DNA from: Bacteroidales bacterium | GTDB taxonomy: Bacteria; Bacteroidota; Bacteroidia; Bacteroidales; PXBB01 | Length of the DNA: 64,000 bases | Reading direction: 5' to 3' | NCBI GenBank assembly: GCA_028698995.1 | Contig: JAQVVM010000003.1 | Location: 1-64,000, forward strand | Shown here: piece after piece, positions 59,446 through 63,790 of the stretch | Numbering within the stretch: the first letter of the stretch is position 1 | Layout of the letters: each line of letters begins with the position of its first letter | Position numbers and translations under genes: made by a program | Notes under the pieces: model-generated | Told to the model about the DNA's origin: nothing | Databases searched by the model: none | What the model saw: only the letters and a program-made list of their open reading frames with translations

Positions 59446-60303
59446 ATGAAGAAAGATACATTCAATCACATCCGTCTGGGGATGGCCCAACTGCTTGTAG
59501 AGGGGCGGGAGCCAGAAAGGAATCTTGAAAGGGCCGCAAAATTGATTAATGAAGCAGCATTACAAGGCTGTCAAATTGTTCTTTTACCCGAAACCATCGA
59601 TTTTGCATGGACACATCCGGCAGCACTTTCGGAAAGTGAACCTATTCCGGGTAAATATTCAGATTTTTTTTGTACTAAAGCCCGTCAACACCAGATTTAC
59701 ATTTGTGTGGGTCTGACAGAAAAAACAGAACGGGGAAATTTTAACACAGCCCTTTTAATCAATGACAGAGGTGATATTATTTTAAAATACAGAAAAATAA
59801 ATCTTTTAGAAGTTGAGCATCCCTATTACGAGGTAGGCACCTCTTTGAATGTAGTGGAAACACCATTCGGACGTATTGGCTTAAATATTTGCGCTGATAA
59901 TTATATTGAAGCTTTACACATTGGTCATACGCTTTCACGTATGAGGGCTCAGATAATTTTATCACCTTCATCCTGGACTGTAGATTACTCTGTTACAGAA
60001 GAAGACGACCCTTATAAAGATAAGTGGATTAAACCCCTAAGCATTTTGGCAAAATTGTATAACATCGTTGTTGTAAGCACTACAAGTGTGGGCTATATCA
60101 TTGGTGGCCCGTATGAAGGCAAAAAACAGGTGGGATGTTCTCTCGCCGTTAATAAAGATGGCATTATTGCCCAAGGACAGTTTAATGAATTTGCAGGAGA
60201 ACTGGTGGTTACAGAATTTGATATTCCGGACAATCAACTTAAGGGAACTCAGTTTGGTGATTTCATCAGGAAAAAAGGCTATAAATTTGATGAATTAATT
60301 TAA
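59446..60303 (+). CDS. Carbon-nitrogen hydrolase (nitrilase superfamily)
   Basis: 285 residues. The nitrilase catalytic triad is visible: Glu49 (LLPETIDF), Lys117 (YRKINL) and Cys149 (GLNICADNY). The sandwich fold is complete. No signal peptide is seen, so it is cytosolic. It ends 5 bp before an N-acetyl sugar amidotransferase gene, suggesting translational coupling. In NAD synthetase a nitrilase-type glutaminase domain feeds ammonia to a PP-loop ATPase domain; the same pairing here makes a glutaminase or ammonia-supplying role plausible, but this is inferred. It could also be an amidase for an unrelated small molecule. Confidence 0.88.
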   Translation: MKKDTFNHIRLGMAQLLVEGREPERNLERAAKLINEAALQGCQIVLLPETIDFAWTHPAALSESEPIPGKYSDFFCTKARQHQIYICVGLTEKTERGNFNTALLINDRGDIILKYRKINLLEVEHPYYEVGTSLNVVETPFGRIGLNICADNYIEALHIGHTLSRMRAQIILSPSSWTVDYSVTEEDDPYKDKWIKPLSILAKLYNIVVVSTTSVGYIIGGPYEGKKQVGCSLAVNKDGIIAQGQFNEFAGELVVTEFDIPDNQLKGTQFGDFIRKKGYKFDELI

Positions 60304-60308
60304 GATTA

Positions 60309-61502
60309 ATGGAAACTGTTATTGTAAACGGCATAAAAACCAATTTAAAACCCCAGACCTGCACCCGTTGCGTTCAGGATAACTCTGTACCGGGTATTGA
60401 GTTTGATACTAAGGGTGTTTGTAATTTCTGCCACCAGCACGATTTTTTAGAAAAGGAGTTCCCAAACGATGAAAAAGGGGAAGCCATTCTTCAAAAAATA
60501 TTTCATAAAATTAAATTAATTGGGAAAAAGAATAAATATGATTGTGTTATAGGAGTGAGTGGAGGAAGGGATAGTACATATCTTATATACCTCGCTGTAA
60601 AAAAATGGGGTTTGCGTCCTTTGGCAGTTCATTTTAATGATGGTTTTGACAATCCTGTGGCAGGGGAAAATATGGTAAAATCATGTAAAAAGTTGGGTAT
60701 TGATTTACGCACCATCACATCGGATTGGCGTGAAGGCAAAGACCTTAAAATAGATTTTCTCAAAGCTTCTGTTCCCGACATCAATTTAGGCACCGACATT
60801 GGCATTGCTTCATCTCTTTATGGTGTTGCCGCAAAAGAAAACATCAAATATATACTTATCGGACAATCTTTCCGTACAGAAGGAGTCAAGCCACTTTCAT
60901 GGTCTTATTTCGATGGCGACTATCTGCGACATGTGCACCAGAAATTCGGTACTGTTAAACTAAGGCCCTGGAAAGCAACCGATCCGGGTTTTAATCTTGG
61001 GATAAGGGAATTGTTTTATTATACAGCAATAAGAGGAATTAAGACAATCACACCCATGTATTATTTTCCTTATATAAGAAAGGAAGCGGAAAAAATTATT
61101 ATTGATGAGTTGGGCTGGGTATACCCCGGTGCTCATTACTTCGATGATTTGTATCATAGTCTTATTAAATATGTACATAGGGTTAAATTCAATATAGACC
61201 TGAATATGAACAGCGACTCGGCTCTTGTGCGCTCAGGACAGATGGACAGAATAGCAGCTCTTGAAAGAGCACATGGTATCTACACTATAGAAGACCCGAG
61301 AATAATTGATTTGTGTATAAAAAGATTGGGATTAAGTCGTGAAGAATTTGATTCTTTTATGAACTTATCACCTAAAACATTTAAAAATTATAAAACAAGT
61401 TACAATATCATCCGGTTATTCCGATTACCAATTTTAGTTTTGTCGTACTTTAACCTTTTACCAAAAGTTACTTATTACAAGTACTTTAAGTGTGGCAAAT
61501 AA
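60309..61502 (+). CDS. N-acetyl sugar amidotransferase (WbpG/PseA-like PP-loop)
   Basis: 397 residues. An N-terminal zinc-ribbon-like motif has Cys18, Cys21, Cys38 and Cys41 (CTRC, CNFC). The PP-loop SGGRDS (84-89) binds ATP as in N-type ATP pyrophosphatases. The remaining core (GVAAKENIKYILIGQSFRTEG, LRPWKATDPGF, GAHYFDDLYH) matches the WbpG/PseA/LegX family, which adenylates an acetamido group on a UDP-sugar-derived intermediate and replaces it with an amidino group using ammonia. The usual ammonia donors are HisH/HisF-like proteins; none is nearby, but the nitrilase gene is 5 bp upstream. The product is probably a surface glycan sugar. Confidence 0.9.
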   Translation: METVIVNGIKTNLKPQTCTRCVQDNSVPGIEFDTKGVCNFCHQHDFLEKEFPNDEKGEAILQKIFHKIKLIGKKNKYDCVIGVSGGRDSTYLIYLAVKKWGLRPLAVHFNDGFDNPVAGENMVKSCKKLGIDLRTITSDWREGKDLKIDFLKASVPDINLGTDIGIASSLYGVAAKENIKYILIGQSFRTEGVKPLSWSYFDGDYLRHVHQKFGTVKLRPWKATDPGFNLGIRELFYYTAIRGIKTITPMYYFPYIRKEAEKIIIDELGWVYPGAHYFDDLYHSLIKYVHRVKFNIDLNMNSDSALVRSGQMDRIAALERAHGIYTIEDPRIIDLCIKRLGLSREEFDSFMNLSPKTFKNYKTSYNIIRLFRLPILVLSYFNLLPKVTYYKYFKCGK

Positions 61503-62170: not shown

Positions 62171-63790
62171 ATGTACATTTTAGGAATTAATGGTGGTGTA
62201 AGGGCCGGGTATCAGGACATATCGGCTTCACTGCTATACAAAGGCAGCGTGATTGCAGCTGTCGAAGAAGAACGATTAAACCGTATTAAATTTTCTCCCG
62301 GACAATTGCCTGAACTTAGCATACATCAGGTACTGAAAATGGCAGGAATCTCCATTCATGATGTTTCTTATGTGGCTTCTCACGGCAGTACATGGGGTCA
62401 GGAATATGCCGATAAGCTGCAGTCGTATTTTAAATTTACTTTTGGGCACTGCCCTCCCCTTGCTTTTGTTCACCATCATGATGCACATGCAGCCGGTGCT
62501 TTTTACGGCTCTGGATTCGATGAGGCGATGGTTATAACTATTGACGGATCAGGTGATGGTGTATCAACGCAATTAGCCATAGGAAAAGGTCTTGATATAA
62601 AAATAATGGAACGTTTTTCCCGTCCCGACAGTCTTGGCATTTTTTATTCAATGATAACGCAATTTTGCGGTTTTAAACGCGACAGTGATGAGTACAAGCT
62701 CATGGGACTGGCTCCATATGGCAATCCCGAAGCTTATGATATGACAACATTACTAAGTTATGGCAATGGCCGATACAAAGTCGATGATTCTTATCTTCGC
62801 CCCATTCCTCACGGTCAATCACAGCCCATAAGACAGGAAATGATGTTCGGACAGAAACTCATTGACATGTTTGGCCCATACCGTCTTAAAGGCGCACCCA
62901 TAGAACAAAATTATAAAGATATAGCCGCATCAGCTCAAAAACACCTCGAAGATGTTATAGTTGACTTGGTAACCGCTTTTCACAAAAGAACGGGTCTTAG
63001 AAAGCTTTGTCTTGCAGGTGGAGTTGCACTCAATTGTCTGGTAAATCAGAAGCTTATGAATCTTGATTTTATAGATGATTTTTATGTGATGCCCGCTTCC
63101 AGCGATGCCGGTATTTCTATGGGAGCGGCCATGTATATAGCTGCCCAAAATGGATTCAAAACAGAAGCTTGTCAGCATGTCTTTTTGGGTAACAATTATA
63201 CAAATGATGATATTTTAAGCATTTTAAAAGCGACAAACATTAACTATAAAGAAGTTAATCCTATAGAAAAAGCGTCAGAATACATAGAAAACAATAAAGT
63301 AATTGCATGGTTTCAGGGGGGAATGGAATTTGGACCCAGAGCACTGGGTGCACGAAGTATTTTGTCCAACCCGGGACATCCCGGCATGAAAGATATTCTC
63401 AATTATAAAATAAAATTCAGAGAATCATATCGTCCTTTTTGTCCATCTGTGACAGAAGAGGATGCCATGAAATATTTTTCTGGGAAAAAAGAAGTATCTC
63501 CTTATATGACAATAACTTATGATGTTAAAGAAGGCATGGGTGTAAAAATCCCGGCTGTGACCCATGTAAATAATACGGCAAGAATTCAAACCGTAAATGC
63601 TTCGCAAAACAAACTATATTATGAATTGTTGTTAAATCTTAAAAAAATAACGGGACATGCAGTTGTGATTAATACAAGTTTTAACACGAACAATGAGCCG
63701 ATTGTGTGTTCTCCATTTGATGCGCTGGCTACTTTTCACAGAAGCGGTATTGATGCTTTATTTATTGGGGATTTTTTGGTTGAAAAGTAG
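62171..63790 (+). CDS. Carbamoyltransferase (NodU/CmcH family)
   Basis: 539 residues. The N-terminal Kae1/YgjD-like domain has VEEERLNRIKFSPGQLP (~31-46), HHHDAHAAGAF (101-111) and ITIDGSGDGV (~123-132), which bind iron and carbamoyl-adenylate. The C-terminal domain carries MEFGPRALGARSILSNP and INTSFNTNNEPIV, hallmarks of NodU/TobZ-type carbamoyltransferases. These enzymes move a carbamoyl group from carbamoyl phosphate via ATP to a hydroxyl on a sugar or antibiotic. The neighbouring sugar amidotransferase makes a glycan substrate likely, but the acceptor is unknown. A TATCTTTG box lies ahead. Confidence 0.92.
   Translation: MYILGINGGVRAGYQDISASLLYKGSVIAAVEEERLNRIKFSPGQLPELSIHQVLKMAGISIHDVSYVASHGSTWGQEYADKLQSYFKFTFGHCPPLAFVHHHDAHAAGAFYGSGFDEAMVITIDGSGDGVSTQLAIGKGLDIKIMERFSRPDSLGIFYSMITQFCGFKRDSDEYKLMGLAPYGNPEAYDMTTLLSYGNGRYKVDDSYLRPIPHGQSQPIRQEMMFGQKLIDMFGPYRLKGAPIEQNYKDIAASAQKHLEDVIVDLVTAFHKRTGLRKLCLAGGVALNCLVNQKLMNLDFIDDFYVMPASSDAGISMGAAMYIAAQNGFKTEACQHVFLGNNYTNDDILSILKATNINYKEVNPIEKASEYIENNKVIAWFQGGMEFGPRALGARSILSNPGHPGMKDILNYKIKFRESYRPFCPSVTEEDAMKYFSGKKEVSPYMTITYDVKEGMGVKIPAVTHVNNTARIQTVNASQNKLYYELLLNLKKITGHAVVINTSFNTNNEPIVCSPFDALATFHRSGIDALFIGDFLVEK

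Follow-up and report, generated by a model that had tools for sequence, protein, structure and literature searches.

Two adjacent genes in a 64,000-nucleotide stretch of a Bacteroidales genome (the whole stretch analysed, hereafter the window) are best read, with a probability of roughly 0.7, as encoding a two-subunit, glutamine-dependent sugar-amidine synthase, in which a class IV (nitrilase-type) glutaminase replaces HisH/HisF. The observations on which we base this reading are the pairing of the two genes, the exclusion of HisH/HisF, the folds of both proteins, their invariant catalytic residues, and the sugar gene clusters in which the pair is found in several genomes. That the nitrilase and the PP-loop gene are functionally coupled is highly probable. 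The pair and the two genes that follow it are:

59446-60303, + strand: nitrilase-fold amidase, proposed glutaminase (ammonia-making) subunit; 285 aa; PF00795, 3.8e-32
60309-61502, + strand: WbpG/WbuX-type PP-loop N-acetyl sugar amidotransferase, proposed amidine-forming synthetase subunit; 397 aa; TIGR03573
61521-62009, + strand: DnaQ-like exonuclease, between the pair and the carbamoyltransferase; PF00929, 8e-15
62171-63790, + strand: NodU-type carbamoyltransferase, recurrent third gene of the unit; PF02543 and PF16861

Both ORFs of the pair are complete and lie on the + strand, with 5 nt between the nitrilase stop codon and the PP-loop ATG. These coordinates bear out an earlier sequence-only reading, which had placed a nitrilase gene 5 bp ahead of a WbpG-like PP-loop gene. 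The positions that it gave for the nitrilase triad (Glu49/Lys117/Cys149), and the SGGRDS motif and four cysteines that it named in the PP-loop protein, were confirmed, and the absence of hisH/hisF that it reported extends to the whole of the window's contig.

A forward survey, using the nitrilase as query and one genome per species, returned 80 loci. Many of these came from Hymenobacter and others from further Bacteroidota (Chitinophagales, Flavobacteriales, Cytophagales and Bacteroidales), together with loci in Omnitrophota and in one Verrucomicrobia and one Nealsonbacteria bin, which may be contaminated. The PP-loop gene adjoins the nitrilase gene in 78 of the 80 loci, following it directly in 76 and preceding it directly in 2, and hisH/hisF was found in 0/80. 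The exceptions are L121, a fragmented bin, and L112, in which the intact nitrilase lies 3.3 kb upstream and a C-terminal nitrilase remnant immediately precedes the PP-loop gene, so that the adjacency of the pair is probably ancestral in L112.

So as to avoid circularity, the reverse survey took the PP-loop protein as query across 60 genomes of the family of G166 and 395 of the phylum; loci were inspected with 1.5 kb flanks. Of the 17 loci in the subclade of the window's protein, 16 had a nitrilase gene next to the PP-loop gene and 0 had hisH/hisF, whereas related WbpG proteins had hisH and/or hisF beside them in 31/33 loci and a nitrilase in 0/33. Taken as guides, since the loci are not fully independent, the Fisher p values are 3e-12 for the nitrilase (16/17 vs 0/33) and 2e-11 for hisH/hisF (0/17 vs 31/33). 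The same partner pattern emerged when the TIGR03573 model was used in a search of its own. The one reverse exception (L203, Hymenobacteraceae, G342) is a second PP-loop copy that lacks a nitrilase of its own; an intact pair is present at another place in that genome. The apparent neighbours of the L203 copy, both named by eye, are a flippase-like membrane protein and an ArnT-like glycosyltransferase.

The pairing is thus far beyond chance, and the nitrilase and HisH/HisF are mutually exclusive. The recurrence across genomes for which the sequence-only reading had proposed a gene-neighbourhood survey therefore extends over several phyla. A chance or hitchhiking neighbourhood without functional coupling might be argued from the fact that most forward loci belong to a single genus, Hymenobacter, and share common flanks. 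Yet the pair occurs in several phyla, with unrelated flanks and with its order swapped, and it segregates against hisH/hisF at the first of the p values above; in the light of the survey results we regard this explanation as refuted and give it almost no weight. The distance matrices of nitrilase and PP-loop proteins also correlate (r = 0.87), as expected for any linked genes, and were not used as proof. No natural fusion of the two proteins was found among the ORFs of the loci examined, and viral contigs and plasmids held no relatives at the thresholds used.

In 21 of the 80 forward loci the gene immediately after the pair encodes a homologue of the NodU-type carbamoyltransferase; in the window it follows after the intervening exonuclease. 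The latter has a homologue in 0/80 related nitrilase loci and is probably a passenger. With the carbamoyltransferase recurring in this way, the product may bear both an amidine and a carbamoyl group.

The PP-loop protein scores 224.2 bits against TIGR03573 (WbuX, N-acetyl sugar amidotransferase), above the curated cut-off of 203.2, and it carries the tetracysteine motif and SGGxDS PP-loop of N-acetyl sugar amidotransferases, as PMC10607449 defines them. C18, C21, C38 and C41, together with S84-S89 (SGGRDS), are invariant in 29 PP-loop homologues. An AlphaFold2 model (pLDDT 91.0) matches the Legionella N-acetyl sugar amidotransferase (NASAT) structure 8wex with a Z of 25.6 and an rmsd of 3.1 over 312 residues, the next match being at Z 12.2. 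A nitrile-making role was considered and set aside, as ArtA, a nitrile synthetase, is a weak second fold match (Z 12 vs 25.6). A quickly built tree, which has some long branches in other parts, unites the PP-loop proteins that are paired with a nitrilase in a single clade (SH-aLRT 96). Most of the HisH/F-paired proteins are its sister group, and fusions of a class II glutaminase to a PP-loop domain make up a further clade.

The nitrilase belongs to its superfamily by a match to PF00795 (CN_hydrolase; 112 bits, 3.8e-32) and by its E-K-C triad. E49, K117 and C149 are invariant across 32 aligned nitrilase homologues, as is E124, the counterpart in the alignment of a second glutamate known from enzymes of the nitrilase superfamily (PMC6946656). 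No curated NCBIfam cut-off is exceeded by the nitrilase, and the models that it matches best in part are those for nitrilase, N-carbamoylputrescine amidase and, weakly, NAD synthase. Membership of three named subfamilies was rejected. The N-carbamoylputrescine amidase model (TIGR03381) gave 59.7 bits against a cut-off of 410. The NadE model (NF010588) gave 39.4 bits against a cut-off of 479 that is set for the whole two-domain NadE protein, and the tree places the nitrilase in a separate clade. Grouping with omega-amidases (YafV/Nit2), which would count against the sequence-only reading, was looked for in the same tree; this parts the nitrilase both from YafV of E. coli and from the separate YafV-like protein (L162) that the window's genome encodes.

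The paired nitrilases form a clade of their own, apart from the NadE glutaminase domains, both the fused ones and a probable split one in genome G005, and were therefore recruited separately from NadE. Nearest to this clade in the tree are N-carbamoylputrescine-amidase-like proteins, a label taken from sequence motifs read by eye. The CED and SP[FY] motifs of the NadE glutamine pocket are replaced by CADN and SPSSW in the paired nitrilase, so that its substrate is not readable from NadE motifs, and the loop past the catalytic lysine is four residues shorter than in NadE. The AlphaFold2 model (pLDDT 90.8) has the nitrilase fold, matching 6ypa at Z 34 and the glutaminase domains of NadE at Z 29; the amidases, carbamoylases and NadE domains returned by the fold search fall within these few Z units (34 to 29), which do not separate substrates. 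The sequence-only reading had likened the pair to glutamine-dependent NAD synthetase: the comparison holds for the two folds, but the tree separates this nitrilase from the glutaminase domain of NadE and its recruitment was independent. A distant nitrilase relative in genome G158 (L010:1411-2247; 169 bits to the clade profile) has an N-terminus that resembles a signal peptide, and no PP-loop gene lies within 1.4 kb of it.

In the mechanism we propose, the nitrilase subunit would hydrolyse an amide, most likely glutamine, to release ammonia, with C149 as nucleophile, E49 as base, and K117 and a supporting E124. At the PP-loop of the WbpG-type subunit, ATP would be split to AMP and PPi and the AMP attached to the N-acetyl oxygen of an acetamido sugar; ammonia would then displace AMP from the adenylated sugar to give an acetamidine. 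We infer the glutamine donor, a physical complex, the transfer or channelling of ammonia, and the exact sugar. The main argument for the nitrilase as ammonia supplier is that it exchanges strictly with HisH/HisF. The NAD synthetase of Thermus thermophilus, which has separate nitrilase and PP-loop subunits and uses glutamine as a complex (PMC3376133), offers an experimental precedent that supports a two-subunit reading. The earlier suggestion of an independent, split version of a glutamine-dependent amidotransferase acting on an N-acetyl sugar is supported by the pairing, the exclusion of HisH/HisF and the tree, with channelling remaining the conjectural part. Against the glutaminase reading we counted the replaced NadE pocket motifs and the shortened loop, the lack of a natural fusion, the L203 copy without a nitrilase, the position of the pair outside a sugar cluster in the window's genome and in Hymenobacter, and the possibility that the PP-loop enzyme might use free ammonia.

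The nitrilase might instead be a separate amidase or carbamoylase that removes an N-acyl, amide or carbamoyl group from a sugar intermediate, while the PP-loop enzyme takes free ammonia. Its closest relatives by sequence and fold are indeed amidases, N-carbamoyl amidases and omega-amidases and not NadE, a carbamoyltransferase is often next door, and ammonia-only PP-loop synthetases exist, for example single-domain NadE (PMC3376133). The nitrilase nevertheless occurs regardless of whether the carbamoyltransferase or sugar genes accompany it, and it is missing wherever HisH/HisF adjoins the PP-loop gene. This pattern of presence and absence points to a replacement of HisH/HisF and not to an extra pathway step; the exchange is left unexplained by a separate amidase, which we therefore think unlikely.

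The setting of the pair bears on its acceptor. The loci of Omnitrophota, Flavobacteriales and Cytophagales place the pair among genes for a Gfo/Idh oxidoreductase, an NDP-sugar epimerase and a DegT-type aminotransferase, as well as a hexapeptide acyltransferase whose N-terminus weakly matches PglD, a GT2 glycosyltransferase and a small membrane protein of EamA type. A large membrane protein follows in these clusters, which has no Pfam match in L085 and a weak likeness to GT-C mannosyltransferases in L057. An apparent cluster for an amino sugar and lipid-linked sugar surrounds the pair in L085 (830-12001), and likewise in L057, L067, L101 and L116. To judge from their gene content, these look like clusters in which an amino sugar would be made, acylated, loaded on a lipid carrier, flipped and transferred. 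The 4-amino-arabinose system of lipid A follows a comparable order of steps.

In the window's genome the pair sits among housekeeping genes, outside any sugar cluster, as it does in Hymenobacter. These neighbours, together with some 30 positions of the PP-loop enzyme that are specific to the nitrilase-paired clade, some of them near the ATP site, could mean that the nitrilase supplies ammonia for the amidation or amidination of a metabolite other than an N-acetyl sugar. Set against this are the score above the curated NASAT cut-off and the match to 8wex at Z 25.6, the amino-sugar and lipid-linked sugar clusters of the three lineages named above, and the ArnT-like glycosyltransferase apparently beside the L203 copy; we consider a different acceptor distinctly improbable and retain the sugar-amidine synthase as our preferred reading.

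The window's genome contains three members of the PP-loop family, each with a different gene arrangement: a WbpG-HisH-HisF set (C30) within a polysaccharide cluster, a fusion protein (C84) and the window's pair. The C30 set includes the only clear hisH-hisF pair of the genome. A PF00977 search of the genome gave one clear HisF, that of C30, and a weak partial match on C69; no HisH/HisF is therefore to spare for the window's PP-loop gene. A hisH/hisF pair elsewhere that was tied to this gene, which the sequence-only reading had named as counter-evidence, was thus looked for, and the only pair belongs to another wbpG. The fusion (L039:2310-4295, G000) is a 661-aa protein that joins an N-terminal class II glutaminase (GATase_6/GATase_7) to a WbpG-like PP-loop domain; similar GATase-PP-loop fusions of 672-676 aa are found in other Bacteroidota (L143, L144). 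Nitrilase-fold genes number four in the genome: NadE (C27), a YafV-like, omega-amidase-like protein (C3), a 552-aa protein of Lnt-like length (C72) and that of the window. In genome G005, an apparently split glutamine-dependent NAD synthetase has its nitrilase subunit and single-domain NadE 150 kb apart (C1:1944328-1945068 and 2096185-2096943).

Compared with known systems, the pair shares with the WbpG/WbuX-HisH-HisF systems (TIGR03573; LpNASAT 8wex) the PP-loop family, the tetracysteine motif, the fold and, in part, the sugar gene context. It differs from them in having a nitrilase as ammonia partner and no adjacent hisH/hisF, and in its PP-loop motif, which is SGGRDS in every nitrilase-paired clade member and mostly SGG[VKLT]DS in the HisH/F-paired ones. 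With the two-subunit T. thermophilus NAD synthetase it has in common the adjoining nitrilase and PP-loop genes and an E-K-C triad with a second glutamate; unlike in glutamine-dependent NAD synthetases, the nitrilase is of a separate clade without CED and SP[FY], and the synthetase is of the NASAT family and not NadE. The C84 fusion likewise has a related PP-loop domain with a glutaminase of its own, although this is a class II Ntn glutaminase within a single 661-aa chain.

In the literature searched, class IV glutaminases are given only as a component of NAD synthetase (PMC3376133), and no description of a nitrilase-PP-loop pair was found. In the pair, a familiar family of synthetases is joined to a type of glutaminase with which that literature had not connected it. 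We consider it fairly probable that NAD synthetase is not the only enzyme to have acquired a class IV glutaminase, and that a second, independent recruitment made this fold the ammonia-producing subunit of a PP-loop sugar-amidine synthase. On this view the glutaminases that serve the sugar amidotransferase family have three unrelated folds, those of class I (HisH), class II (fused) and class IV (nitrilase), all of them in the window's genome. If true, this second recruitment would show the nitrilase fold to be a supplier of ammonia to PP-loop enzymes in general. A nitrilase clade that falls outside every named subfamily, and a clade of N-acetyl sugar amidotransferases without a known ammonia source, would both gain functions, and nature would offer three types of glutaminase for comparison at work with a single synthetase family.
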